DNA of 25,858 nucleotides from a virus: positions 1 to 25,858 of IMG/VR virus record IMGVR_UViG_3300006735_000210, one strand, 5' to 3'. The notes beneath the pieces are model-generated. The model was not told the origin of the DNA and did not search any database. It was given only the letters and a program-made list of their open reading frames with translations. A program made the position numbers and the translations under genes. Positions 1 through 24,131 of this stretch are shown here, in pieces. Positions within the stretch are counted from its first letter, which is position 1. Every line of letters begins with the position of its first letter.

Positions 1-3000
1 CTGCACGTTTGTATTCAGCAGGACAAAGGTTCCATCTGTCATGCCAGCCGCTGTATCAATGTTCACAGTTGCAGAGCCACCAACTAGATCAACGCTGCCG
101 CGATAGATATTGTCAGCTTGTGGCGCTTCCACAAACGAGTGAACAAGGTGGTGGGTATCTGTTTTAGCGGGTAGGGGGTGGTCAATCTTAAATGATCCAG
201 AACCCTTGGAAAGACTGCCTGGGATAGAGACAGCGCCAGAGTCAGCAATAATAATCCTCTTAGTGCCTTCATCTGTTTGCAGTGAAAGACCGCCAGACCC
301 ACTAGCAATAACATCACCACACTTGATGGCAACGCTCATAACAAGACCGTTATGGCTAAGGTTCATCCGCTCTGCGCTAGCAGTGTTGAAATACATAGTG
401 TCGTTTGAGTGAGCATACTGAACAACTGCCCGACCACGACCATCATTGTCTGAGAACAATATTCCGCCCGTGCTTCCGTTGGGAGTACGAATGTCCATCA
501 TCACTGAACCAGAATTTTCTAATATTAGTTGGTCGGCTGCGTCAGCGGAATACGATTTACCTGACCCGCCTTTGTAAACGTGGAGTCGCCCTTCAGCTGT
601 TGGTGCGACCCCGATGCCCACGGAGCCGCTGCTGTCGATGCGCATGGCTTCGGCTGGTGCTGACCCTGTTCTAAAGACTATATTTCCGTAGCCCGTCGTC
701 GTGCCGTGGGAATCAATGTAAAGATGCTCAAATCCGGTGGCGTCGTAGTTAATTTCACCGTAGGGAGTCGCAGCCGGATTACCAAATCTAATCGACTGAT
801 TCGCTTGTGTAGCATCATAGATGTGCAGCTTTTTAGCTGGGCTGCTAGTCCCTATGCCGACGGAGCCGCCCGAAATGCGCATGGCTTCGCTGCCGCCAAG
901 ACTAAACTTAAACGCACCTGTTGAGCTTTGAGCATCAAGCTCCACACCAGCATTACTGTTGGTGTTAGAAAACGTGCTTATTTTTAAGCCCCTGTTTGGC
1001 GTACCGCCTCCTGCGTGGAAGATAGCTATATCCGAATGATCAGTATTATTGTTGACGGTCAGAGGTGCTGAGATTGTGGCAGTTCCGATGCCCACGTTCC
1101 CATCGCCACGAACCTTAAAATAGGTCGCTGAGTTGTCGTGGTTTCTAACACTAAACGACTCATCGCTTGAGTTGCTACCAGCGCGAACCCACAACCCGTA
1201 ATTTCTACCGTCAGTTGCTTCATTGTTGCGAACAGTTAAAGCATAAGCATCGTCTGCAACACCGTCTGCTGGGTCAATTGTTACTGCGCCGCTGCTGGTC
1301 AAACCATCCGCAGTCACGTTGCCGCTGAAGGTGGAGTTTCCGCTGGAATCAATTTCTAAGCGATTGGTGTTGTTAGTCAGTAGCTTCAGTTCATGCGCGG
1401 TTGTCGTACCGAAAGACATGGCAGTGTTGCCGTCCTCATACGCCAGTTTACCTGCGACCGCACCCCCAGTTCGCTGGAAGACCATTAAAGATGTGTCAGC
1501 TAATGCGTTTGATGTAAGCGTTAAAACCGTTGAGCCAGACGAAGCGCCTGTAACAGATAACCCTGCTGACATATCCACAGCACCATCAATGTCCACGACA
1601 TCTAGGTTAGTGGTGCCATCAACGTCTATATCGCCTGAGATGTCTAACGTAGCAGCATCTAGCTCACCGCTAATCGTAAAGTTGCGAATGCCTGTGTAGT
1701 CTTTATTAGAATCAAGTATAACAGCCTTAGAAGCTATTGCAGTACCTACTGCTGTGCTACCAAGGTCTAATGCGTTTAGTTCGCCTACAACGGCTGTAAT
1801 GCCATCTAGGACGTTTAGTTCTTCAGGAGTAGAAGTAATAGCTGTAGTAGACACTGCTGCCAATACAGGCAAAGTACCGCTTTGGTCAGGCAAGCTAATG
1901 GTTCTATCAGCAGTAGCGTCTATACTTGTAAGCGTAGTTTCTGAAGCATCCGCTGTAGCTCCTTCAAAGATTACAGCGTTGTTTGCAGTCATCTGTACAG
2001 AGTCTACAATAGTAGTAGTACCAGCTACAGATAAGTCTCCAGTAATAGAAAAGTTCCTAACGCCTGTAAAGTCCTTGCTAGAATCTAATACTACTGCTTT
2101 AGATGCAATAGCTATACCTACTGCTGTGCTGCCTAAGTCCAGAGCGTTTAACTCACCAGTTACGGCAGTAACACCATCAAGAATGTTTAATTCTGCTGTT
2201 GTGGATGTAACTCCGTCTAGGATGTTAAGTTCAGCAGCGGTAGACGTAACTCCATCAAGGATGTTCAATTCTGCCGCTGTGGACGTTACGCCATCCAGTA
2301 TGTTAAGTTCAGCAGTAGTAGACGTTACACCATCAAGAATATTTAATTCAGCAGCCGTGCTTGTGACACCATCAAGGATGTTAAGTTCCGCTGCCGTAGC
2401 CGTAACCGCTGTGCCATTAATGGACAGTGCGTCAGTTTCCAACGTACCGTCAATGTCAGCGTCGCCTGAAATGTCAAGAGATCCTGCATCCAGTTCTCCT
2501 GTAAGTGTAATGTTACGGAAGCTGGTTACATCTTTGTTTGCATCTACTGTTACAACTTTACTAGCTACTACTGTGCCTACGGAAGACCCAGTGTCGCTGT
2601 AGTTCAATTCAGCAGTAGTGGCTGTTACACCGTCTAGTATGTTTAACTCTGCGGCAGTGCTAGTTACTCCGTCGAGGATATTAAGTTCTACCGCTGTAGA
2701 CGTAACACCGTCCATAATGTTCAGTTCTGCTGTAGTTGCAGTAACTCCGTCCATTATGTTTAACTCAGCAGTAGTCGCTGTAACACCATCTAATATATTG
2801 AGTTCAGCAGTGGTACTGGTTACACCATCAAGTATATTTAGTTCAGAAGCAGTGGAAGTAACACCGTCCAAAATATTGAGTTCTGCTGCGGTTGACGTTA
2901 CGCCATCTAGGATATTTAACTCAGCAGCAGTAGCGGTCACTCCGTCTAAAATGTTAATCTCTGCGGCTGTAGAAGTTATAGCTGTACCGTCTAAGCTAAT

Positions 3001-3399
3001 AGCGTCAGTGTATAGTGTACCATCAAAGTAACCGTCCTTAAACTCTAAGGAGCTAGTACCAAGGTCTACGTCATTGTCCGTTACAGGTGCAATAGCTCCA
3101 TCAGTCATTGTAAACTGTGCAGTACCTGCGGAACTAAATGCTAAGGTGTCCGCTGCGCTAAAAAACAGCCCAGTGTTAGTGTCACCTGTGTTTGTTATGG
3201 AAGGATCACCAGCAGTACCATCAGGAAAAGAAACTACACCTGTAAACGCTGGGCTAGCAATGTTTGCCTTAGTTGCGGATGCAGTTGCAATATTATCAAA
3301 CTCTGCATCAATCTCAGAGCCTTTGACAATCTTATTAGCATCACCAGATACTAAAGAGTCTTTAGCTGTAAAGTTGGTTGTCTTTGAGTAATTTGTCAT
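1..3399 (-). CDS. Tail fibre / receptor-binding protein, repeat-rich, C-terminus cut by window edge
   Basis: Open for 1133 codons from the ATG at 3399 to the left edge with no stop, so the protein continues outside the window. The N-terminus (MTNYSKTTNFTAKDSL) is followed by a low-complexity, beta-rich chain. Arrays of a 13-residue unit, TSTAAELNILDGV, come next in three blocks of 9, 6 and 1 copies, each followed by a related spacer (GELNALDLGSTAVG type). Further on are 'VGIGT.(S/A)P' turns (for example GGSVGIGTSSPAKKLHIYDA) typical of trimeric fibre shafts. Near the edge, about residues 1069-1115, lies SGSFKIDHPLPAKTDTHHLV, a block I recall from marine phage fibre proteins. The gene is last in the tail cluster and its start overlaps the upstream stop as ATGA, with AGGT about 8 bases before the ATG. 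Adsorption is the inferred role; the receptor is unknown. Confidence 0.88.
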   Translation of the reverse strand, partial: MTNYSKTTNFTAKDSLVSGDANKIVKGSEIDAEFDNIATASATKANIASPAFTGVVSFPDGTAGDPSITNTGDTNTGLFFSAADTLAFSSAGTAQFTMTDGAIAPVTDNDVDLGTSSLEFKDGYFDGTLYTDAISLDGTAITSTAAEINILDGVTATAAELNILDGVTSTAAELNILDGVTSTASELNILDGVTSTTAELNILDGVTATTAELNIMDGVTATTAELNIMDGVTSTAVELNILDGVTSTAAELNILDGVTATTAELNYSDTGSSVGTVVASKVVTVDANKDVTSFRNITLTGELDAGSLDISGDADIDGTLETDALSINGTAVTATAAELNILDGVTSTAAELNILDGVTSTTAELNILDGVTSTAAELNILDGVTSTAAELNILDGVTSTTAELNILDGVTAVTGELNALDLGSTAVGIAIASKAVVLDSSKDFTGVRNFSITGDLSVAGTTTIVDSVQMTANNAVIFEGATADASETTLTSIDATADRTISLPDQSGTLPVLAAVSTTAITSTPEELNVLDGITAVVGELNALDLGSTAVGTAIASKAVILDSNKDYTGIRNFTISGELDAATLDISGDIDVDGTTNLDVVDIDGAVDMSAGLSVTGASSGSTVLTLTSNALADTSLMVFQRTGGAVAGKLAYEDGNTAMSFGTTTAHELKLLTNNTNRLEIDSSGNSTFSGNVTADGLTSSGAVTIDPADGVADDAYALTVRNNEATDGRNYGLWVRAGSNSSDESFSVRNHDNSATYFKVRGDGNVGIGTATISAPLTVNNNTDHSDIAIFHAGGGTPNRGLKISTFSNTNSNAGVELDAQSSTGAFKFSLGGSEAMRISGGSVGIGTSSPAKKLHIYDATQANQSIRFGNPAATPYGEINYDATGFEHLYIDSHGTTTGYGNIVFRTGSAPAEAMRIDSSGSVGIGVAPTAEGRLHVYKGGSGKSYSADAADQLILENSGSVMMDIRTPNGSTGGILFSDNDGRGRAVVQYAHSNDTMYFNTASAERMNLSHNGLVMSVAIKCGDVIASGSGGLSLQTDEGTKRIIIADSGAVSIPGSLSKGSGSFKIDHPLPAKTDTHHLVHSFVEAPQADNIYRGSVDLVGGSATVNIDTAAGMTDGTFVLLNTNVQ
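1798..1836 (-). repeat. Single fibre repeat unit C
   Basis: One copy, TSTPEELNVLDGI, followed by TAVVGELNALDLGSTAVG as after array B. It is the third and shortest module of the same fibre architecture. Confidence 0.85.
2170..2403 (-). repeat. Fibre repeat array B: six 39-bp (13-aa) units
   Basis: Six tandem units of the same 13-residue motif (T-A/S-T-A/T-A-ELNILDGV), exactly 6 x 39 = 234 bases, ending in the degenerate unit TAVTGELNALDLG. It is preceded by a segment (GTLETDALSINGTAVT) that resembles the one before array A (GTLYTDAISLDGTAIT). Confidence 0.95.
2626..2976 (-). repeat. Fibre repeat array A: nine 39-bp (13-aa) units
   Basis: Nine back-to-back units of consensus TSTAAELNILDGV, exactly 9 x 39 = 351 bases, inside the tail fibre gene. 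Variants include AEINILDG (first), ASELNILDG, TTAELNIMDG (twice) and AVELNILDG. The DNA copies differ at many synonymous positions although the peptide is kept, so the array is old and held by selection on the protein. A degenerate tenth unit (TATTAELNYSDTG) follows. Confidence 0.95.
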
Positions 3400-5554: not shown

Positions 5555-8157
5555 CCTATTATGTTCCTAAATAAACTGGGTGCAAACTCTGGTGTCTTAT
5601 ACATAGTTGCTCTTTGTACTTCTTGAGGTGCTTGATATGTAGGCTTAAACTCTAAGTCTTCAAACAAAGTACGAGTAACTTTGCCGGGGTTTAGCATTCC
5701 AAGGGCTAGTCCTGACGCTAAGCCTATTCCAGTCCCTGCACCAGCGCCTTCTCCACGCCCCTGCCCCTGACCCTCACCAAAACCCTCACCAAAACCTTCT
5801 TCGCGTCCTGCGGCTTCTGCGGCGGTTGCTGCGGCTTCTCCAGCAGCCACTGCTTCCGCTGTTGCAGTTTCTCCAGCAGCCACTGCTTCCGCTGTTGCAG
5901 TTGCACCTGCGGCTTCCGCTGCTTCTACAGCAGCATTTCCTGCGGCTACAGCAGCGTCTACAGCATCTTGACCAGCTTGCACAGCATTTGCTACGTTAGT
6001 TTCTCCTGCTGCTATGGCATTTTGTAAAGTTGTTGCTGATTCACTTATTGTGTTCTGTAGTGTAGTTTCAGCGGCTTCCATAGCTTCAGAAAGAGCAGTA
6101 TTACCAGCTTCTATTGCTGCGGCTTTAGCTTCCGTAACCTCAGTAAGTTTTGTGTTTAGAGAATCTATAGATCCTTCTAAAGTGGTTACTGAAGATTCTA
6201 AAGTTTGTATGCTTTCTGTTTGGGCTGCTATTGTTCCAGTTTGGTTAGATATTGCTTCATTAGCTGAATTTAGTTCAGCCTGTAATGACGACGCTGTATC
6301 TTGTGCGTTTTCTAAAGCTGTTGCGGATGTTTCTAATTTAGTTTCTAAACCTTCAATAGCTGTACCCGCTGATTCTAGTTCTCCTTCTAAACCCTCAATA
6401 GTTGATTCAAGACCTGTTTTTTCTGTAGTAAAATCTGCCTCTACTTCACTTACAGCTTTTTGAACAGCAGCATCTATATCCCCTTGGTCAAACAAAGTAG
6501 TGTCTTCAGGAAGATTAGCTAATACTGTTTGTTTGGCTTCTTCTACTTCTTCAGGCGTAAATAACCCAGAAGTAGCACCAGCTAAAGCAATAGATACAAA
6601 ATCATCTACCTGCTTTTGTGTGAACATTCCCCCAGAAGATGGTGGTGGTGGAGAAGCTGGTGGTGGAGCAGAAGGAGGAGGAGGAGGTGCGGAAGGTGAG
6701 GGTGCAGAAGGTGCTTTAACGCTTTCTTGTCCTTCTTGTGCTTCTGCTGCTTCTGCTGCTGATGAGGACTCACTACCGCCTACTTCACTTGTGTCAATTG
6801 CTGGTGGTGGTATGTTGAGAGCAGGGTCTTGTGGATCTTGCATATCAACGTCTGATGTAACATCGTTTAGATCAACAATAGTTTCAAAAGTTGTTTCTGG
6901 TGGTGGGGTAACTTCGTCAGGCTCGTCTGGCTTTACTGCTTTTTCAGTAGTGTCTGTAGGTTCTTCTCCAAGATCAACTTTACGAACAACTCCATAAGCA
7001 GTGTCTAAAATTTCTTTTATGGTAAAAGGGTCAAGATCTGCTTCAAGCAGTATCTTTTCTGCTTCTTGTCTGTCTGAAGTTCTATTTTTTACTTTTTCTG
7101 CGGCAGTTTCAATACGTTCTTCTTGGAGCAGCGGATCATCTGGGTCGTAGTATTTACCAGCAGTTGCTATAGAACTTAGCATATTAACAGGGCCAGCAAA
7201 CCCGCCTATAGAATCTCCTGCTGTTGCAGCAGATCCTCCTGAAAAAACGTCTCCAATAGTAGTTACACCGCTAGTGTCTACGTCATAAATAGGATTACCT
7301 GCTGCGTCTACTCCTGTAGTTACAGCTTCTTCGCCAAACAAAGGAACATCTGCAAAAATATTGCCTAATGCTTCTTTAGCTCCTCCCAAAACCTGAGCAA
7401 TCATAACAGCCTTGCCTACTTCAGCAAGAGTCCTTACGCCAGTAGCAAAATCACTTTCATTTATTTCGTATGTTCTTAGCTCACCAAAGCTAAAGGGGTC
7501 ATACAGGTACTGTCCTGTACCGTCTGAAAAAAGAGGATTGACACCGTACTGCCCCATAAGCTGTTGTACTTCAGGGTCTTTGGTGTATACGTCATAAAGT
7601 GCTTGTTCGTAGTTTGCACCTGTAGTCGCTTGTACTTGAGGTACTTTGTCAAGCAGTAGTGTTCTTATTGCGTTTTGAAAGTCACCAAGGTTTTCTTGAG
7701 AAGCGTTAGTAAATCTGTTTAGCTTACCTTGAAAGTCTCCTTGGTCTTGAGGAAGTTCAGGCAACTCCCCTGTAACTGAAGACAAGTAATCTTCTGCACT
7801 TACAATGTTTGATAATGCTGTAGGTGCGCCCCCCATACCTGCGGCTTCAGATCCAAAGGTATCAGCAAAAGGATCTAACCCTGAAGTTGTCTCTGCTTCT
7901 CTAAGGCCTAAATCGTAGTAAGAAGCTACTTCGTCAGGATCATCTGTAGTCGCCCCTGATGCTAAAATGTTCCTGTATACATCAGTAATAGAGCCTAGCT
8001 GTCCTGCTGTGTACAGAGGATTAGAAGCTAGTGGAGGAGTATATTTTTCTTCTTCCTTCTGTTCTTGTTCAGCAGAAGCCACACCACCCATAAAGCCGGG
8101 AGGTAAGTCAAACTCTGACTCAAAAGGATTACCAAAGAAGAACTGTTCTGCCCTCAT
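5551..8157 (-). CDS. Large internal virion / tail-associated protein with coiled coil and Ala-Gly-rich C-terminus
   Basis: 868 aa, no recognised enzymatic motif. Order of regions: an acidic N-terminal half (MRAEQFFFGNPFESEFDLPP) with many Gly and Thr; an acidic linker; a poly-Pro hinge at about residues 480-507 (PSAPPPPPSAPPPASPPPP); a long heptad-like region rich in Glu, Thr and Ser at about 545-720; an Ala-rich stretch at about 700-783 with a perfectly duplicated 11-residue unit; a Gly-rich segment (EGFGEGFGEGQGQGRGEG) and a hydrophobic Gly/Ala stretch (GTGIGLASGLALGML) near 810. Size, position between capsid and adaptor genes, and the possible membrane-active end suggest an ejected internal protein or a tail-lumen protein, as in T7-like phages. 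That is inference. Overlaps of ATGA type exist on both sides. Confidence 0.72.
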   Translation of the reverse strand: MRAEQFFFGNPFESEFDLPPGFMGGVASAEQEQKEEEKYTPPLASNPLYTAGQLGSITDVYRNILASGATTDDPDEVASYYDLGLREAETTSGLDPFADTFGSEAAGMGGAPTALSNIVSAEDYLSSVTGELPELPQDQGDFQGKLNRFTNASQENLGDFQNAIRTLLLDKVPQVQATTGANYEQALYDVYTKDPEVQQLMGQYGVNPLFSDGTGQYLYDPFSFGELRTYEINESDFATGVRTLAEVGKAVMIAQVLGGAKEALGNIFADVPLFGEEAVTTGVDAAGNPIYDVDTSGVTTIGDVFSGGSAATAGDSIGGFAGPVNMLSSIATAGKYYDPDDPLLQEERIETAAEKVKNRTSDRQEAEKILLEADLDPFTIKEILDTAYGVVRKVDLGEEPTDTTEKAVKPDEPDEVTPPPETTFETIVDLNDVTSDVDMQDPQDPALNIPPPAIDTSEVGGSESSSAAEAAEAQEGQESVKAPSAPSPSAPPPPPSAPPPASPPPPSSGGMFTQKQVDDFVSIALAGATSGLFTPEEVEEAKQTVLANLPEDTTLFDQGDIDAAVQKAVSEVEADFTTEKTGLESTIEGLEGELESAGTAIEGLETKLETSATALENAQDTASSLQAELNSANEAISNQTGTIAAQTESIQTLESSVTTLEGSIDSLNTKLTEVTEAKAAAIEAGNTALSEAMEAAETTLQNTISESATTLQNAIAAGETNVANAVQAGQDAVDAAVAAGNAAVEAAEAAGATATAEAVAAGETATAEAVAAGEAAATAAEAAGREEGFGEGFGEGQGQGRGEGAGAGTGIGLASGLALGMLNPGKVTRTLFEDLEFKPTYQAPQEVQRATMYKTPEFAPSLFRNIIG
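5837..5902 (-). repeat. Perfect 33-bp tandem duplication in the virion protein gene
   Basis: Two identical 33-base copies (5837-5869 and 5870-5902) encode TATAEAVAAGE twice. Identity at every synonymous position points to a recent duplication. A shorter 12-base repeat encoding GFGE lies just downstream on the coding strand (about 5775-5800). Confidence 0.92.
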
Positions 8158-14928: not shown

Positions 14929-15081
14929 TTACTTCCCTACCTTCTTTTGTGCTGTTTTGTGTGCTTGAGTAAAAGATTTACCAGCCCTCATAGCTTTACG
15001 CATCTCAGTCATGTGCTTTGCACTATGGTGTACTGAGTGTTTTTTCAACGTAGCTTGTTGTCTCTTAGTAAGTGCAGCCAT
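14929..15081 (-). CDS. Small basic protein (50 aa) after the large terminase gene
   Basis: Reads MAALTKRQQATLKKHSVHHS, then AKHMTEMRKAMRAGKSFTQA and HKTAQKKVGK. The pattern 'LTKRQ..TLK.HS.HH..KHM.EMR..M..G..F..AHK.A...VGK' is one I recall as recurrent next to terminase and portal genes in phages. ATG overlaps the terminase stop (TAATG), and AAGAAGGTAGGG near its end supplies a ribosome-binding site for the next gene. His- and Lys-rich; function unknown. Confidence 0.78.
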   Translation of the reverse strand: MAALTKRQQATLKKHSVHHSAKHMTEMRKAMRAGKSFTQAHKTAQKKVGK

Positions 15082-16334
15082 TAGTACCCCGTTACTGTGT
15101 CTAAAACTTCATGGTCATCTATTTCAAAGTCGTATGTGTACGCTATCTTAGCCAACTGGTCTATGTAAGCTAATGAGTCCACAAGGTCATCATGTGTCAG
15201 TGGATCAGGAAATTGAAATAACTGGTCTAAGAACCGACTGTTCCACTCCCCTTTGTCAAGGGTTACGAAACCATTTTCAAACCTGCCCTGTAGCGCCCAC
15301 ATGACCCTATCAGTCTTCTTTTTGTTTCCGTGGGTCAACTCATCAACCCTAAAAAACATCCCGTACCGCTTCATCATGTCCGTCAGAGGGGACATAACAG
15401 CCTGTCTAGCAATACCTTTCTCTATGCCTATCCCTACTGGCTTGTAGTCCCTGACAACCTCAAATATCTTTCTGGCTGTCTCAGACAACTCCCAGCGCCC
15501 ATGAACTATGTTTTCAACATGCCAGTGTCCACTGTCATTAACCTTGACAACCGCTATGGCTGTCTCGTCCAATTTACTGTTCTTAGTACGCTGCTTGTTT
15601 ACTTCCTCAAAGCCAGCTAGGTCAATGGCTATGTAGTAGTCACCGTACTCAGGGGATTCACCAAACTTGACCCAATCCTCCTTGAACATCTCAGAGCCTC
15701 TGGCCTCAAAGGAAGCCATAAACTCTTGTCTAAACGCATAGCTGGACATACTCTTTTTAGCTACGTTTATCTCCTCTGCGTCCAATAGAGGGTTGTCATA
15801 GCTTGTAAAGTGCCACGCTTTGTACGTTGGGTCATCGTCTAACTCAGCGTACTGATACAACTCATAAAAGTGATTACGTCCCATAGGCGTACCTATGAAC
15901 AACGCATTCCCCTTTTGGTCAGCCAATGCTGGCCTAAGAATCTGCTCAAATACTTCAGGCTTCATGTCTGCGTATTCGTCCATGACCAGAAACTTCAAGG
16001 ACACACCACGCATAGTCTCTGGCCTGTCCGCACCCTTCAACGATATTGTAGCACCATTGATTAGCTTTATCTGTAGGTTGTTAATGTGGCTGGACACAAT
16101 CACTGGATTCCCCAGTTCAAGCAGTGTCTGCCACATGATGTCCCTAGCCTGTCCCTGTGTAGGTGCAACGTAAAACACATTACCCTTACTGGACTCCAAG
16201 GCGTTAACAATCAACAACCATGCTGCTAGTCTGGACTTACCAGTACGTCTACCAGCGGCTACAATCTTAAACCTTGTATCGTCACTCCATACCTCTTGTT
16301 GCCAAGGGAGTAACTCAATGTTAAGATCAGTCAA
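15081..16334 (-). CDS. terL: Terminase large subunit (ATPase and nuclease)
   Basis: 417 aa. ATPase domain: Walker A at 27-34 (AGRRTGKS), Walker B at 115-120 (FLVMDE) with catalytic Glu120, followed by the coupling region FIGTPMGRNHFYELY. RNase H-like nuclease domain: Asp238 in YYIAIDLAG, an acidic residue at Glu305 (GIGIEKG) and Asp382/383/386 in HDDLVDSLAYID. All motifs needed for packaging motor and cutting seem present. It moves DNA into the prohead through the portal. Length is close to the compact podovirus terminases. It overlaps the preceding 111-aa gene by 8 bases and the next by one (TAATG). Confidence 0.96.
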   Translation of the reverse strand: MTDLNIELLPWQQEVWSDDTRFKIVAAGRRTGKSRLAAWLLIVNALESSKGNVFYVAPTQGQARDIMWQTLLELGNPVIVSSHINNLQIKLINGATISLKGADRPETMRGVSLKFLVMDEYADMKPEVFEQILRPALADQKGNALFIGTPMGRNHFYELYQYAELDDDPTYKAWHFTSYDNPLLDAEEINVAKKSMSSYAFRQEFMASFEARGSEMFKEDWVKFGESPEYGDYYIAIDLAGFEEVNKQRTKNSKLDETAIAVVKVNDSGHWHVENIVHGRWELSETARKIFEVVRDYKPVGIGIEKGIARQAVMSPLTDMMKRYGMFFRVDELTHGNKKKTDRVMWALQGRFENGFVTLDKGEWNSRFLDQLFQFPDPLTHDDLVDSLAYIDQLAKIAYTYDFEIDDHEVLDTVTGY

Positions 16335-16681: not shown

Positions 16682-17032
16682 TTAATAACACCACACCACA
16701 GCATCAGTATCTCTAGTATCCACATGGATAAACCCATTAGCCACACCTATACCCCTAAAGCCCATAATCATTGCAGCTTTAATTATCTTATGGCGCTGTT
16801 GGCCTCCTGACACCTTAATGTCAGCAGCTATACCTTCAGAGTGTTTCCCCGGCTTAGCCTTCTTTGCCTCTATAGAGTGCTTAGGTGACCTATATCCGCT
16901 AGTGATTACAAAGGGAAAACCACATGCTTCCCTTAACTCATCTAGCTTAGCAACGAACTCTGGCTTTATCTGATTCTCACCTGTTTCTTGACAATCAAAA
17001 TCTTCTATCTTGAAGTATTTGTAGTTAGCCAC
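16682..17032 (-). CDS. M15-family D-Ala-D-Ala-type peptidase, endolysin candidate
   Basis: 116 aa from the GTG at 17032, which overlaps the upstream stop (GTGGCTAA) and has GGAAG just before it; a longer reading to 17191 would lie inside the small-terminase gene and has a non-protein-like Lys-rich start. Motifs: SGYRSPKHSIEA (about 45-56), KHSEGIAADIKV with His64 and Asp71, and FIHVDTR with His103 and Asp105: the HxxxxxxD and HxD zinc site of the peptidase M15_3 group. It would cut peptidoglycan cross-links or stems in the periplasm. No signal peptide, so release would depend on a holin, with the membrane protein at 8154-8501 as candidate. A virion-associated role is possible. Confidence 0.88.
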   Translation of the reverse strand: MANYKYFKIEDFDCQETGENQIKPEFVAKLDELREACGFPFVITSGYRSPKHSIEAKKAKPGKHSEGIAADIKVSGGQQRHKIIKAAMIMGFRGIGVANGFIHVDTRDTDAVVWCY

Positions 17033-17447
17033 TTTCTTCCGTAAACTCCCCTTCAATGGTGTTTTCTTCTTCTTGTTCTTGTTCGGTTGTTGCTTCTTTT
17101 TCACTCGTACCAGAGACACTTGTGGCGACTTGCCCAACACCTGAGATAGTAATTGACACAGACTGTCTCCCACCTGTAGAATCCTTTTCAAAATAACTTA
17201 AAGGCAACATCCTATCCATTACTAGTTTCCATGCTGCCGCTTGATTTTTATGGTCATCGTTAAGAGCAGCATTAAAAATACTATCCAGAACCTTGTTAGA
17301 TTTAGGGGAAGCAAGCATTCTAGCCTTATATTCGTTAATAATGCTAGCGTCACCTTTAGGGCGACCTACTTTACCCCTGTTTCCTGTAGTTTTAGAGACT
17401 ACATCAGTCTTCCTTGGTCTTCCTCTTTTACGTTTAGGTTGATCCAT
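17025..17447 (-). CDS. Terminase small subunit candidate with AT-hooks
   Basis: 140 aa. N-terminus with two AT-hook-like cores, KRKRGRPRK (about 5-13) and RGKVGRPKG (about 24-32), then a helical domain (INEYKARMLASPKSNKVLDS; LNDDHKNQAAAWKLVMDRML) and an acidic C-terminus (TEQEQEEENTIEGEF). DNA-binding N-terminus, helical core, acidic tail and position as first gene of the packaging operon fit a small terminase, which recognises the packaging site and loads the large subunit. No direct motif proves it. ATG follows AAGG about 11 bases upstream, 36 bases below the -10 of the promoter at 17483-17511. Alternative: a transcriptional regulator of the arm. Confidence 0.68.
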   Translation of the reverse strand: MDQPKRKRGRPRKTDVVSKTTGNRGKVGRPKGDASIINEYKARMLASPKSNKVLDSIFNAALNDDHKNQAAAWKLVMDRMLPLSYFEKDSTGGRQSVSITISGVGQVATSVSGTSEKEATTEQEQEEENTIEGEFTEESG

Positions 17448-17482: not shown

Positions 17483-17511
17483 ATTATATCATATTTTGTG
17501 TCAAAAGTCAA
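17483..17511 (-). promoter_or_regulatory. Sigma70-type promoter for the packaging genes
   Basis: On the minus strand TTGACT (17511-17506), exactly 17 bases, TATAAT (17488-17483), with an extended -10 (TGATATAAT). The 12 bases TATGATATAATC are identical to those at the promoter at 10911-10939. Transcription would start about 25-30 bases before the ATG of the small-terminase candidate. Confidence 0.9.
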
Positions 17512-17609: not shown

Positions 17610-17717
17610 TATTGGTCATTTTAACCTAATTTTGGCCTATTTTGTACATGAGAGGGTACTATAATTTATTAAGCAGCACAAGCCCCTCCCCCGTCCCCTC
17701 TAGCATACCCCGGCCCT

Positions 17718-17888
17718 CATGTCAACCATAGACAAACCAAAGGTTGGCATGGTTATTGCATGTGTTGACTAGAGTTGGCATGAGTTTTGCATAGGAGCCT
17801 AGCCCTCTGGCTACCACAGCCAACCAGAGAATACAAGTGTTGACATGTGAGAGGCACTCTGGCACCCCATAGGTCAACATAGGTCAAC
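17718..17888. repeat. Cluster of eight GTTGAC/GTTGGC hexamers
   Basis: On the plus strand at 17743 (GTTGGCATG), 17764 (GTTGACTAG), 17774 (GTTGGCATG) and 17839 (GTTGACATG); on the minus strand at 17721-17726 (in CATGTCAAC), 17819-17824, 17873-17878 and 17883-17888. Two of them sit in a longer direct repeat (17743-17761 and 17774-17792, 16 of 19 bases equal), and the last two in an exact 10-base tandem CATAGGTCAA (17868-17887). Confidence 0.75.
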
Positions 17889-18023
17889 CCAACCAACCAC
17901 AAGCACACAACACCACCCATTGCAACTACTATATAGTTATATGCATAGATTAAATAGTTATTAGACACCAGTGATCCACACGCTATCATGGCTTCACAAA
18001 TTAATAACTACATAGGTAAACAC

Positions 18024-18182
18024 ATGAATATAAAAGAACAATATATAGAATCTTTAAACTGTGCACTGGACAGTTGTTACCGTGATCTCGATTACTACGA
18101 GAGCATTGGTCATCAGAGCAATATAAACGAGGTGGAGCAGCGCATTGTTTCACTTAAGCAACAAATTGAGGACGTAGTCTAA
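18024..18182 (+). CDS. Hypothetical early protein, first gene of the plus arm
   Basis: 52 aa from the ATG at 18024 (MNIKEQYIESLNCALDSCYR). An in-frame ATG at 17988 would add 12 residues but has no ribosome-binding site, while 18024 follows AGGTAAACACATGAA, almost the same context as AGGTTTACACATGAA before the gene at 18556. Helical with a Leu/Ile-rich end (EVEQRIVSLKQQIEDVV), coiled-coil-like. Stop overlaps the next ATG (TAATG). No family recognised; early host-takeover or regulatory roles are typical for this place. Confidence 0.68.
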   Translation: MNIKEQYIESLNCALDSCYRDLDYYESIGHQSNINEVEQRIVSLKQQIEDVV

Positions 18183-19908: not shown

Positions 19909-20135
19909 GCGATACATTCTCACATGACATAGACGAAACAGATGAATCTGAGCCTGAGAACCTCAGTGTTCGTGAGTTAAAAGAAAACGACCTGATCGAA
20001 TACAGGTTGAACACCATGACCATATCAGAGGTATGCAATGCGGCCTCTAAATGGCTAACGATGACAATAGCCGACCACAGCGACGCACAGATTGATGCAT
20101 TACATGAAAAACTATTCAATAGGGAGCTACACTGA
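19905..20135 (+). CDS. Hypothetical acidic protein (76 aa)
   Basis: Very acidic N-terminus (FSHDIDETDESEPENLSVRE) followed by a helical part (ISEVCNAASKWLTMTIADHS; QIDALHEKLF). The acidic start could mimic DNA or bind a host protein, but nothing proves this. ATGA at the start, TGATG at the end. No family recognised. Confidence 0.74.
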   Translation: MSDTFSHDIDETDESEPENLSVRELKENDLIEYRLNTMTISEVCNAASKWLTMTIADHSDAQIDALHEKLFNRELH

Positions 20136-20332
20136 TGAGATGCAGAGCGTGCAACAGCGGCCCATTGGGTGAGATTGAGCTAGCTAGGAAAGACCACAAA
20201 AGCGGGGAGTTCCTAGACCTGTGCAACACTTGCTACACTGTGTCCAATAGAGCCATAATTGCTCAACAATATGAGTCGCTCTATCTGGACGATAGCCAAC
20301 TGGATGAGCTAGAATTTGAACTTTTTAACTAG
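20135..20332 (+). CDS. Small zinc-finger protein (65 aa)
   Basis: MRCRACNSGPLGEIELARKD, then GEFLDLCNTCYTVSNRAIIA and an acidic end. Two CxxC pairs (Cys3-Cys6 and Cys30-Cys33) about 24 residues apart form a likely treble-clef or ribbon-type zinc site. AGGGAG lies upstream, and the ATG shares a base with the previous stop. Last gene before the promoter of the replication genes; a role as regulator or host-factor binder is possible. Confidence 0.78.
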   Translation: MRCRACNSGPLGEIELARKDHKSGEFLDLCNTCYTVSNRAIIAQQYESLYLDDSQLDELEFELFN

Positions 20333-20451: not shown

Positions 20452-20823
20452 ATGGCTGTAGCAGAAATGAAAGTAGCCTTTAGTAACTTGCGCGAGACTG
20501 AGACTTATCAGGGACAAGATACTGGACGGTTTACCTTGACGGGTACTCTGGACGATGCAACAGCAGAGATGTTGTCAGCGCAGGGTGTTAAAATCAAAGC
20601 TTACGAGGACATGGCACAACGAAAGTTTGCCAGTAAGTTTCCGGTGAAGATCATAGACGCGAATGACGCGCCCTTCACTGGTGACATTCCCAGAGGCTCT
20701 CTTGTACGCATTAGCTACAAGACAGGCCCAGCACATCCAGTGCATGGTACGCCGACGTACCTGAACGCTGTGCGAGTGTTGGAACTTGCAGAAGATGCGT
20801 CGGGAATAGATGACGAACTCTAA
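20452..20823 (+). CDS. Single-stranded DNA-binding protein candidate
   Basis: 123 aa. Beta-rich body (MKVAFSNLRETETYQGQDTG, then RFTLTGTLDD; FPVKIIDANDAPFTGDIPRG, SLVRISYKTGPAHPVHGTPT) with the spacing of an OB-fold and an acidic C-terminus (ELAEDASGIDDEL). An OB-like body with acidic tail, encoded immediately before the primase-helicase and polymerase, is the layout of phage SSBs such as T7 gp2.5 (232 aa; this one is shorter). It would coat the lagging strand and contact the polymerase and helicase by its tail. It overlaps the next gene by 14 bases. No diagnostic motif exists for such SSBs, so this is a structural and contextual call. Confidence 0.77.
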   Translation: MAVAEMKVAFSNLRETETYQGQDTGRFTLTGTLDDATAEMLSAQGVKIKAYEDMAQRKFASKFPVKIIDANDAPFTGDIPRGSLVRISYKTGPAHPVHGTPTYLNAVRVLELAEDASGIDDEL

Positions 20824-22420
20824 GTTTATTAAGCATGAGTCCTGCCCAGTATGTGGCAGTAGTGATGCGCTGGCCCGTTATAGTGACGGGTCGGCCCATT
20901 GCTTCTCCGCTGGGTGTAACCACCATGAGAATGGTAATGGTGAAGTAGTGAGCATTGCAGAGAAAAGACCGCTAGAGTTCAATGGTGCCACGGCTTCCAT
21001 ACCAGAGCGTCGAATAACACAGGCTACGTGCGCCAAGTTTGGTGTTACTGTGGAGTTTGACAGGTCAGGTAAGATAAGCCGACATCACTACCCCTACTAT
21101 GCCGTGGACACTAACGAGGTGAAAGGCAGCAAGGTGCGCATTGTTCAGAATAAAGACTTCTACGCCACAGGCTCGTTGCAGGGTGTGGGGTTGTTTGGTC
21201 AGAACACTTGCAGAGGTAGAGGAAAGTTCATAACGATAACAGAGGGCGAACTGGACGCACTGAGTGTGTCTGAGATGTTCGACAACAAATGGGATGTGGT
21301 GTCGCTACGCTCTGGCGCATCCGCAGCAGCAAAGGAAATAAAAGAGCAACTAGAGTGGCTTGAGGGCTACGATCAGGTAGTGTTGTGTTTTGACAACGAC
21401 AAGGCGGGACAAGCTGCCATTGATGAAGTCAAGGACATATTTAGCCCTAGCAAGCTAAAGATATGCAAGCTACCTCTGAAGGACGCTAGCGAGATGCTGG
21501 TGGCTAAAAAAGTCAAGGACTTTGTGTCAGCATGGTGGGACTCTAAAGCCTATCAGCCTGATGGTATCATCTGTGGCAAAGAAACATGGGATGCTATTAC
21601 GGGCAAGATGAAAGTGAAGTCAGTACCGTACCCTTGGCAGGGACTTAATGACATGACCAAAGGCTTTAGGCCATACGAGCTAGTGACCATCACCAGCGGG
21701 TCAGGGATGGGTAAGTCACAGATTGTCAGGGAGCTAGAATATTACATTCTAAACGCTACTGAGGACAACATTGGCATACTTGCGCTGGAGGAAGACGTAG
21801 CACGTACTGCTCTGGGTATCATGTCAGTGGCCGCTGACTGCCCATTGCACCTAGAGGAAGACTTGGACGCTGACGCTGCTTTCCCTTTCTGGGAACAGAC
21901 GCTAGGCACTGGGCGCTTCTACCTGTTCGACCACTGGGGCAGCACAAGTGAGGACAAACTGTTGTCTCGTGTGCGTCACATGGCTAAGGCACTGGACTGT
22001 AAGTGGATCATACTCGACCACCTGTCCATCGTAGTGTCAGCACAGGACAATGGTGATGAGCGCAAGGCTATAGACGCCATTATGACTAACCTGCGAACAC
22101 TGGTGCAGGAGCTAGGCATAGGGCTATTCTTAGTGTCCCACCTGAAGCGTACCACAGGTAAGCCACATGAGGACGGAGGCAAGATTAGCTTGAGTGAGTT
22201 GCGAGGCTCACAGGCGATAGCGCAACTGTCGGACATGGTGATTGGCTTGGAGCGTAACCAGCAGGACGAGGACGAGGATAAGCGTAACACAACTACAGTA
22301 CGTATCCTCAAGAATCGCTACGCTGGTTTGACAGGAGCAGCCTGTTACCTGAAGTACGACAGGGTTACAGGTCGCATGACTGAGGTGGCAGCACCCAAGG
22401 ACGTAGACGATGACTTCTAA
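20810..22420 (+). CDS. Bifunctional DNA primase-helicase (T7 gp4-like)
   Basis: 536 aa. Zinc-binding domain with Cys12, Cys15, Cys31 and Cys36 (SCPVCGSS...HCFSAGC); TOPRIM-type primase core with Glu145 (ITEGELDAL) and Asp195/Asp197 (VLCFDNDKAG); RecA-like hexameric helicase with Walker A at 297-303 (GSGMGKS), Walker B at 400-406 (IILDHLS), motif H3/H4 with His444 (FLVSHLKR) and an arginine near RILKNRYAG (498-506). The last residues DVDDDF resemble the acidic, Phe-ended tail of T7 gp4 that binds the polymerase. All main motifs look intact. It makes RNA primers and unwinds DNA at the fork. It overlaps SSB by 14 bases and the polymerase gene by 11. Confidence 0.97.
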   Translation: MTNSKFIKHESCPVCGSSDALARYSDGSAHCFSAGCNHHENGNGEVVSIAEKRPLEFNGATASIPERRITQATCAKFGVTVEFDRSGKISRHHYPYYAVDTNEVKGSKVRIVQNKDFYATGSLQGVGLFGQNTCRGRGKFITITEGELDALSVSEMFDNKWDVVSLRSGASAAAKEIKEQLEWLEGYDQVVLCFDNDKAGQAAIDEVKDIFSPSKLKICKLPLKDASEMLVAKKVKDFVSAWWDSKAYQPDGIICGKETWDAITGKMKVKSVPYPWQGLNDMTKGFRPYELVTITSGSGMGKSQIVRELEYYILNATEDNIGILALEEDVARTALGIMSVAADCPLHLEEDLDADAAFPFWEQTLGTGRFYLFDHWGSTSEDKLLSRVRHMAKALDCKWIILDHLSIVVSAQDNGDERKAIDAIMTNLRTLVQELGIGLFLVSHLKRTTGKPHEDGGKISLSELRGSQAIAQLSDMVIGLERNQQDEDEDKRNTTTVRILKNRYAGLTGAACYLKYDRVTGRMTEVAAPKDVDDDF

Positions 22421-24131
22421 CAGCGCACTTTACTTAGACATTGAGACTGACGGGCTAAATCCTAGCGTGATCTGGATTGCAGTGACAAAGCAGGACGGTA
22501 AGGTTAGTAAGCACTACGCTTCTGAGTCTCTGGCTGCTACGCTGGAAGGCACGTTCCCAGTAGTGGGACAGAACCTGTATGGTTTTGACCTGCCTGTTCT
22601 GGAGCGCCTGTGGGGTATCAAGGTAGACCGTGAGCGTGTACAGGACACTCTGGTCATGTCACGACTCAGTAGCCCTAATCGTGCAGGTGGGCATAGCCTA
22701 CGGGCATGGGGCGAGCGTCTTGGGTTCTCTAAGGGCGACCATACTGATTGGTCACGCTTGTCACCTGAGATGGAAAAGTATTGTGTACGTGACGTTGAAG
22801 TAACTGAAAAACTGTACCAGCACCTACTGGATGAACTGGACGGGTTTGAGGTGAACTCAATACAACTAGAACATGAGGTGCAAAGGATAGTGAGTAGACA
22901 GGTCAGCCTTGGCTGGCTACTGGATCTAAAATATGCACACCAATTATTAGCTCTGCTAAAGGAAAAAAAATATGACTTGGAAGACAAAGTACAGGATACC
23001 TTTCGTCCTCTCCCTACATTTGTCAAGGAGATTACGCCACGGTGTAAGAAAGATAATACAGTCTCTACGGTCGGCCTAAAGTTTTTAGGTGAGCAGTGGA
23101 AGGATGTAAATGGCCCGTTTAGTCGCATTGACTTCCCTGAGTTTAACTTGGGGTCAAGGCAGCAGATTGGCAGATACTTACAGCATTTTGGATGGAAGCC
23201 TAAGAAGTTTACAGAGAAAGGCCAAGCCATTGTTGATGAAGCTGTGCTGTCCTCAATCACTGACATACCTGAAGCACAATTGATAGCTGAGTACCTTATG
23301 GTTCAAAAGCGCGTAGCACAGATAAAAAGCTGGATAGACGCTGCTGATGAGGAAGGTAGGGTACACGGCAGGGTAAACACAAACGGGGCTGTAACGGGCC
23401 GTATGACGCACTCAGAGCCTAATTTGGCACAGGTTCCAGCGTCCCGCGCTCCATACGGCAAAGAGTGTAGATCCTGCTGGACTGTCCCAGAAGGTAAGTC
23501 TCTGGTGGGCTTTGACGCTAGCGGCTTGGAGCTACGAATGTTGGCACACTACATGGGAGATAAGGAGTACACCAATGAAATTCTCCACGGAGACATTCAC
23601 ACAGCAAATCAAAAACTTGCAGGACTTGAATCGCGAGATCAGGCTAAAACTTTCATATATGCCTTCCTATACGGAGCAGGAGATGCAAAACTTGGTACAA
23701 TTGTCGGGGGAAATGCTCGTGCTGGCAAAACGCTTAGAGGCAGATTCCTTACTGGTCTGCCAGCACTTAAATCTCTTACTGAAAGAGTTGCAAGAAAAGC
23801 AGAAGGAGGATACCTCAAAGGACTAGACGGCAGGGTGCTACAGGTACGTAGCGCACACTCAGCACTCAATACGTTACTTCAAGGTGCTGGTGCCATAGTT
23901 ATGAAGAAGGCTCTTGTTATCCTAGATGAATATGCACAGGGGTACAAGCTGGACTATAACTTTGTGGGTAACATCCACGACGAAGTACAGGCTGAAGTAA
24001 CAAAAGGTCAGGAGGATAAGTACGGCAGACTAGCGGTGTCTTGTATAGAAGCTGCGGGTCTACACTACAACCTCAGATGTCCATTAACAGGAGAATACAA
24101 TGTTGGCAGCAACTGGTCAGAAACCCACTGA
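22410..24131 (+). CDS. DNA polymerase, family A (T7 gp5-like) with 3'-5' exonuclease
   Basis: 573 aa, shorter than T7 gp5 (704). Exonuclease: Asp10/Glu12 in YLDIETDG, Asn55/Asp60 in GQNLYGFDLPVL, Asp128 in YCVRDVEV. Polymerase: NGAVTGRMTHSEPNLAQVP, motif A with Asp369 (FDASGLELRML), motif B RDQAKTFIYAFLYGAG (409-424) with Arg409, Lys413 and Tyr417, and motif C HDEVQ with Asp524. Tyr417 is at the site of E. coli Pol I Phe762, as in T7 (Tyr526). GLDGR and 'SAHSALNTLLQGAGA' are as in T7. It copies the genome with proofreading, with a host factor such as thioredoxin possible as clamp; the thioredoxin loop cannot be judged by eye. No intron interrupts it. Confidence 0.97.
   Translation: MTSNSALYLDIETDGLNPSVIWIAVTKQDGKVSKHYASESLAATLEGTFPVVGQNLYGFDLPVLERLWGIKVDRERVQDTLVMSRLSSPNRAGGHSLRAWGERLGFSKGDHTDWSRLSPEMEKYCVRDVEVTEKLYQHLLDELDGFEVNSIQLEHEVQRIVSRQVSLGWLLDLKYAHQLLALLKEKKYDLEDKVQDTFRPLPTFVKEITPRCKKDNTVSTVGLKFLGEQWKDVNGPFSRIDFPEFNLGSRQQIGRYLQHFGWKPKKFTEKGQAIVDEAVLSSITDIPEAQLIAEYLMVQKRVAQIKSWIDAADEEGRVHGRVNTNGAVTGRMTHSEPNLAQVPASRAPYGKECRSCWTVPEGKSLVGFDASGLELRMLAHYMGDKEYTNEILHGDIHTANQKLAGLESRDQAKTFIYAFLYGAGDAKLGTIVGGNARAGKTLRGRFLTGLPALKSLTERVARKAEGGYLKGLDGRVLQVRSAHSALNTLLQGAGAIVMKKALVILDEYAQGYKLDYNFVGNIHDEVQAEVTKGQEDKYGRLAVSCIEAAGLHYNLRCPLTGEYNVGSNWSETH
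23575..23826 (+). CDS. Possible overprinted gene inside the DNA polymerase gene (83 aa)
   Basis: In another frame of the polymerase gene an ATG at 23575 is preceded by a perfect AAGGAG (23562-23567) with seven bases between. The reading frame runs 83 codons: MKFSTETFTQQIKNLQDLNR, then EIRLKLSYMPSYTEQEMQNL, an amphipathic Leu-rich helix (SGEMLVLAKRLEADSLLVCQ) and a charged end (ELQEKQKEDTSKD). The product looks like a soluble helical protein. It covers polymerase motif B and the fingers, where the polymerase frame is constrained, so chance cannot be excluded. Not proven to be expressed. Confidence 0.3.
   Translation: MKFSTETFTQQIKNLQDLNREIRLKLSYMPSYTEQEMQNLVQLSGEMLVLAKRLEADSLLVCQHLNLLLKELQEKQKEDTSKD

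Follow-up and report, generated by a model that had tools for sequence, protein, structure and literature searches.

What is the dense cluster of GTTGRC hexamers that lies between the two diverging gene arms of this viral DNA? The analysed DNA, referred to here as the window, has a divergent layout where the structural genes (terminase, portal and capsid) form the minus arm and the replication genes, among which an endonuclease is also counted, form the plus arm. The main landmarks are as follows.

1-25,858: the window, IMG/VR virus record IMGVR_UViG_3300006735_000210, 25,858 bases
15081-16334, minus strand: terminase large subunit (PHROG 2, 1.1e-44)
17025-17447, minus strand: first minus-arm ORF, TerS-like by position only, with an AT-hook-like N-terminus
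17483-17511, minus strand: extended sigma-70-type promoter of the structural arm, TTGACT-17-TATAAT, 11/12, with TG in front
17988-18182, plus strand: first plus-arm ORF, 64 aa, no function assigned
20452-20823, plus strand: Gp2.5-like ssDNA-binding protein (PHROG 112, 1.2e-4, a weak match)
20810-22420, plus strand: primase-helicase (Pfam DnaB_C and Toprim)
22410-24131, plus strand: family A DNA polymerase (Pfam PF00476)

A longer record, G001 (35,558 bases), is 99.2-99.9% identical to the window over the stretches compared and carries extra ORFs, named by eye, that are ribonucleotide-reductase-like or structural-looking; judged from its ends, it is probably a near-complete genome. No closely related cultivated phage was found by terminase, capsid, portal or polymerase, the polymerase being at most 50% identical to those of Pelagibacter phages, and megablast of two site-bearing loci gave no match. 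Terminase relatives in genome contigs amounted to 11 loci, all of them on MAG contigs, and since these span mixed phyla no host is assigned.

The first-pass annotation had described eight GTTGRC sites, four on each strand, and our counts agree: they are located at 17721, 17819, 17873 and 17883 on the minus strand and at 17743, 17764, 17774 and 17839 on the plus strand, spanning 168 bases (17721-17888). The background of about one per kilobase outside the cluster was likewise confirmed, with 34 GTTGRC in the whole window against a shuffle expectation of 28.4. Dinucleotide shuffles of 17718-17888 (n=5000) contained 0.28 copies on average and at most 3. The hexamer was picked post hoc, and when all hexamers with one two-fold position were counted, one other, CYGCTG in repetitive coding sequence near 5840, was also observed to reach 8 per 171 bases; three shuffles of the whole window gave at most 6 for the same class. 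Within the cluster we find the 19-base direct repeat at 31-base spacing (17743 and 17774), the exact tandem of CATAGGTCAA at 17868-17887 and the GTTGRCATG extensions at 17721, 17743, 17774 and 17839, all as originally described.

On sequence grounds, the 19-base repeat consists of two sigma-54 (RpoN) -24/-12 elements in tandem, both facing the replication arm.

17744-17760, plus strand: predicted sigma-54 site 1, TTGGCATGGTTATTGCA, PSSM 19.6 bits, second best in the window
17775-17791, plus strand: predicted sigma-54 site 2, TTGGCATGAGTTTTGCA, PSSM 20.3 bits, best in the window

Both copies follow the pattern TTGGCATG-N4-TTGCA, which is the sigma-54 consensus. Each has GG at -24, GC at -12, the fixed spacing and the YTGGCACG-N4-TTGCW context, with one mismatch to the consensus (T for C) that also occurs in E. 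coli sites. The strict pattern TGGCAYN5TTGC matches only these two sites in the window and only the same two in G001. The matrix was derived from sigma-54 ChIP-seq sites of E. coli, 42 in number and all intergenic (PMC4591121), and scanned on both strands; the third-best score in the window is 15.4 bits, and the E. coli sites have a median of 16.5 and a maximum of 21.1 bits. Among 300 dinucleotide shuffles, the best score reached 20.3 bits in 4 and the second best reached 19.6 bits in none. The gSELEX motif of the RpoN holoenzyme, TGGCACnnTTnTTGC (PMC8743547), is the same. Recognition of both sites by sigma-54 is thus predicted with high confidence. They share with bacterial sigma-54 promoters the -24/-12 elements, the spacing and the tolerated bases, and score in the upper E. 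coli range; they differ from them in lying in a phage, in close tandem and without an identified activator.

The same kind of site recurs among relatives. Over the 80 loci of a terminase search, 111 strict sites were counted against 4 for the reversed pattern, and site-bearing uncultivated relatives have 1-9 of them in the corresponding divergent gap, in some cases adjoining DnaA boxes. Pooling the terminase loci with later ones, which include loci picked by the sigma-54 pattern, gave 96 unique divergent regions with 203 strict sites (control 0). We therefore also used a terminase-only set of 68 unique regions, obtained after 28 of the 96 were dropped. Here strict sites were found in 23/68 regions (76 sites, control 0) and PSSM matches of at least 13 bits in 28/68 (83 matches against 0 in reversed sequence), both fractions being lower bounds as longer pattern-scan copies of the same contigs were kept and some sigma-54-bearing regions were lost. 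The remaining 40/68 relatives have no match at 13 bits, which means that phages of this type can do without the sites. Most of the strict sites in the terminase-selected regions (60/76) face the replication arm, as both window sites do.

The arrangement of the sites is variable. Same-strand spacings in the family are mostly 26-28, 36-37, 46-47 and 54-57 bp, a periodicity built on repeats that share descent and may not be independent; the 31 bp of the window is unusual. In some relatives plus- and minus-strand sites are interleaved as palindromes, and some have convergent sites that could not both fire. A quick terminase tree with 94 rows requires at least 27 changes of array type and at least 19 for the presence of sigma-54 sites alone. 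Conservation of the cluster in close relatives, which the first-pass annotation had made a test of its idea, is accordingly mixed: G001 is identical here and distant relatives keep sigma-54 sites, but L004, with a TerL 97% identical, has a different array in the gap.

The view of GTTGRC as one operator motif was abandoned. After masking of the sigma-54 sites it splits into two motifs, because GTTGGC in the 19-base repeat is the -24 half of the sigma-54 sites. Against the reversed motif, masked GTTGAC was found 72 times versus 13 in the 23 regions with sigma-54 sites and 54 versus 17 in the 45 without, while masked GTTGGC was at most weakly enriched (11 versus 3 and 24 versus 18, respectively). 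Masked GGTTGACA was enriched too, with 21 versus 1 in the 23 regions and 12 versus 1 in the 45. By these counts the GTTGAC copies outside the sigma-54 sites are a second, separate family motif, and they may be operators of a regulator or activator. Of the earlier suggestion of operators or origin iterons, the control region and the origin-like features stand and the single motif does not, the 19-base repeat being sigma-54 sites. The elements around the pair are listed below.

17628-17697, plus strand: left block TAATTTTGGCCTATTTTGTACATGAGAGGGTACTATAAT followed by a C-rich tract, with TATAAT at 17660 and no clear -35
17721-17726, minus strand: GTTGAC copy, the family-enriched motif outside the sigma-54 sites
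17764-17769, plus strand: GTTGAC copy lying between sigma-54 sites 1 and 2, from the pattern count
17819-17824, minus strand: GTTGGC copy outside any sigma-54 site, from the pattern count and PSSM
17839-17873, plus strand: right element GTTGACATGTGAGAGGCACTCTGGCACCCCATAGG, in relatives GTTGACAAGTGTGTG..TATGTTGGACCC
17868-17887, plus strand: tandem CATAGGTCAA with minus-strand GTTGAC copies at 17873 and 17883, a repeat seen in the sequence

The right-element pattern, of which GTTGAC is a part, was found in 36/96 unique family regions, and the copy in the window was paired with those of relatives by eye. A hairpin in this element was not supported: six stretches were folded, with z between -1.2 and +1.4, and one of them, L069:3400-3480, starts within the element and does not span it. 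Among the 52 regions listed with a loose pattern, most have a block similar to the left one, some rows being chance matches elsewhere. In the window (17683-17692) and in relatives, a C-rich tract CCCCTCCCCC was seen to adjoin a conserved TATTTTGT..GGNTACTA block.

We prefer the reading that the pair acts mainly as a sigma-54 promoter for the plus arm, to which we give a probability of about 0.6, because the window sites and 60/76 family sites face the replication arm and the arrays favour divergent gaps. RpoN would bind at the two sites and a host enhancer-binding protein would open the complex, sending host RNA polymerase-sigma-54 toward the genes for replication, namely those of primase-helicase, DNA polymerase and endonuclease. 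The structural arm would be served by its ordinary sigma-70 promoter, and the GTTGAC copies would be a separate motif for a regulator or activator, with the tandem promoters placed in or beside an origin-like region. Under the rule that the start lies at the motif centre + 19 (PMC4591121), transcription from site 2 is expected near 17802. This predicted start is ~185 bp before the first plus-arm ATG, a distance exceeding that of the majority of E. coli sites listed in that paper's Table 1, and this counts against promoters. The remark that no ordinary promoter for the plus arm is visible nearby was upheld: no strong sigma-70 promoter faces this arm, a weak sigma-70-like site (10/12) is located at 17962-17989, and sigma-70 promoter-like sites are no more frequent than chance would give (3, with 3.6 on average in shuffles). 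The 26-31 bp tandem spacing looks too tight for two holoenzymes together, which likewise counts against promoters.

Since no polymerase, sigma factor or activator domain was found in the records searched, such sites would most naturally be used by host RNA polymerase carrying sigma-54. Phage-type RNA polymerase (PF00940) was found in 0/14 family records, and when the search was repeated on 7 family records alongside T7, only the T7 control matched; this does not fit a T7-like phage with its own single-subunit RNA polymerase. Sigma-70 region 2 (PF04542) was found in 0/14 family records. Sigma-54 (PF04552) was found in 0/17 family records, where a whole MAG matched as control, and in 0/50 non-family records. 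The enhancer-binding activator domain (PF00158) was found in 0/50 records, 48 of them site-bearing and including 4 sigma-54-bearing family records of 35-37 kb. These zero counts led us to set aside a phage-encoded sigma-54 or activator, the records possibly being fragments where absence is not proof. Neither an activator gene nor a known activator site was identified.

Close tandem sites are not confined to this family. Among IMG/VR stretches, at least 120 carry close tandem sigma-54 pairs (complement control pattern, 1) and at least 120 carry triple arrays. The same tandem pattern occurred in 0/143 genomes of Gammaproteobacteria, a class picked via a MAG bin and not as host class. Such arrays therefore look like a viral signature, and a literature search of titles and abstract openings, which also covered DnaA and iteron origins, returned no report of sigma-54 arrays in phages. 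Among L115-L233 and L311-L350, 97/159 pattern loci have no 40% match to the core genes of the family. Outside the family, in the same loci, 30/49 gap arrays lie in divergent gaps, which make up 27% of gap bases (p=5e-7); arrays in same-strand gaps were 6 co-directional and 8 anti-directional, and 5/49 lie in convergent gaps. Direction and spacing tests covered the non-family loci among L115-L193. With one ORF caller 44/83 sites face a gene start against 50/82 when flipped, and with a second the downstream genes are co-directional in 16/25 clusters (p=0.23), so that the non-family loci show no clear directional preference. Genes adjoining a few of the non-family arrays are terminase, portal, helicase and similar.

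Several of these loci show unusual layouts. L339:1964-2237 has ten same-strand sigma-54-like sites between convergent ORFs, which are hard to see as promoters. Records G059 (locus L179) and G066 (locus L190) have 16 and 17 sigma-54-like sites (control 0), those of G059 being clustered in ~3 kb with little obvious coding. In a site listing of 80 loci (L115-L193 and L079), L189:2055-4550 has sigma-54-like site pairs every 0.7-1 kb, and both pairs inspected precede TGCCATTTTGGCAG repeats.

Other explanations of the pair were weighed against the promoter. A chance or repeat artefact is very improbable: the hexamer was chosen post hoc and one other is equally dense, but 0/5000 local shuffles reach the observed count and relatives conserve the sites with control matches at zero. 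The 19-base repeat could instead be bound by a phage protein, as iterons or operators that only look like sigma-54 sites. The roughly 10-bp periodic spacing and the dyads in relatives would suit such a protein. Base preferences at the non-anchor positions of 63 distinct anchored family sites, however, correlate with those of E. coli (r=0.81, reached by 0/2000 position permutations), so that the family sites vary only where sigma-54 tolerates variation, and the motif also occurs in the 97/159 loci that lack a core-gene match. We regard this explanation as improbable.

The sites might also serve as decoys, holding host RNAP-sigma-54 in inactive closed complexes and silencing the host sigma-54 regulon; no transcript would be necessary, and capture would grow as phage copies accumulate. 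The outside-family direction results, the tight spacing and the convergent pairs speak for a decoy or structural role. Overlapping arrangements, the convergent gap of L339 with up to ten sites, the viral bias of the tandem pattern and the missing activator domain are in keeping with it. The window has two sites only, though, and their location in a divergent control gap with the replication-arm bias suits promoters better, which leaves the decoy an unlikely alternative that still deserves some weight. It is somewhat more doubtful that the array is part of a replication origin, in which sigma-54 open complexes or bound sigma-54 would help to melt or prime the DNA by analogy with DnaA in relatives with DnaA boxes and with T7 RNA polymerase promoters at the T7 primary origin. 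In its favour are the DnaA boxes of the same gap, the order of sites in mixed regions, the frequent changes of array type, and the skew minimum with an A+T-rich stretch just downstream. The skew, however, is confounded by the divergent genes, the presence of both kinds of site side by side suggests separate jobs, and no initiator was identified.

Apart from the role of the sites, a replication origin probably lies in or next to the region, given the DnaA-box arrays that relatives have in this gap. The 96 unique divergent regions contain 110 DnaA boxes against 6 for the control, with at least two boxes in 21/96. By class, 38 regions have sigma-54 sites with fewer than two DnaA boxes, 13 have both, 8 have at least two DnaA boxes only and 37 have neither; several of the last class hold other repeats in the slot (11 regions displayed). 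In 10/13 mixed regions all sigma-54 sites are located downstream, on the plus-arm side, of all DnaA boxes. The window itself has no TTATNCACA DnaA box. Its cumulative GC-skew minimum is at 18011, a position confounded by the divergent genes, and one further feature was noted.

17921-17980, no strand: 70% A+T stretch (60-base window) separating the cluster from the first plus-arm ORF, a possible unwinding element

T7 RNA polymerase promoters act at the T7 primary replication origin, and promoters phi1.1A and phi1.1B were seen in the T7 record. The window resembles this origin in that two tandem promoter-like sites lie close to where the replication genes begin, in a phage that has a family A polymerase and primase-helicase; it differs in that T7 promoters are read by the phage's own polymerase, and none was found in the window's family. 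DnaA-box and iteron origins, such as those with lambda O iterons or plasmid iterons, are similar in their lineage-specific repeats in one slot near an A+T-rich stretch, with DnaA boxes in relatives; they differ in that the window has neither TTATNCACA nor an identified initiator. Dense DnaA-box arrays (TTATCCACA/TTATGCACA) were observed in L017, L021, L011, L027, L043 and L055, in the divergent gap that matches the sigma-54 slot, and repeated GTTAGACTtAGG-type units form another array in the same slot in L070 and L304.

The presence of side-by-side sites suggests that these viruses use or tie up host sigma-54. As a tentative and rather doubtful generalization, many unrelated uncultivated viruses may carry a portable array in the divergent control region that captures a host factor, where close tandem and sometimes palindromic sigma-54 sites would trap the RNAP-sigma-54 of the host. 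On this view the family exchanges the contents of its slot, which may be sigma-54 sites, DnaA boxes or other repeats, and the host factor by which the control region or origin is opened would be a replaceable module. A sigma-54 promoter gives no transcript before an activator that responds to a signal has opened it. Replication genes or an origin under sigma-54 would, if the reading is true, make phage development depend on the host's state with respect to nitrogen, stress or motility; alternatively, such a phage would disarm the host sigma-54 regulon. As the arrays look viral, phages that carry them may be ones with rpoN-bearing hosts, within a large uncultivated group.

No plus-arm gene was accepted as linked to the sigma-54 sites, the best uncorrected p being 0.005-0.013 over dozens of gene clusters. 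A 65-aa ORF with cysteines (20135-20332) has counterparts in 16/34 family regions with sigma-54 sites and 4/27 without (uncorrected p 0.013). At the other end of the window, a minus-strand tail-like ORF (1-3399) contains many AELNILDGVT repeats, and the ends of G001 have in common a 170-base repeat (88%) within the tail-like gene region.
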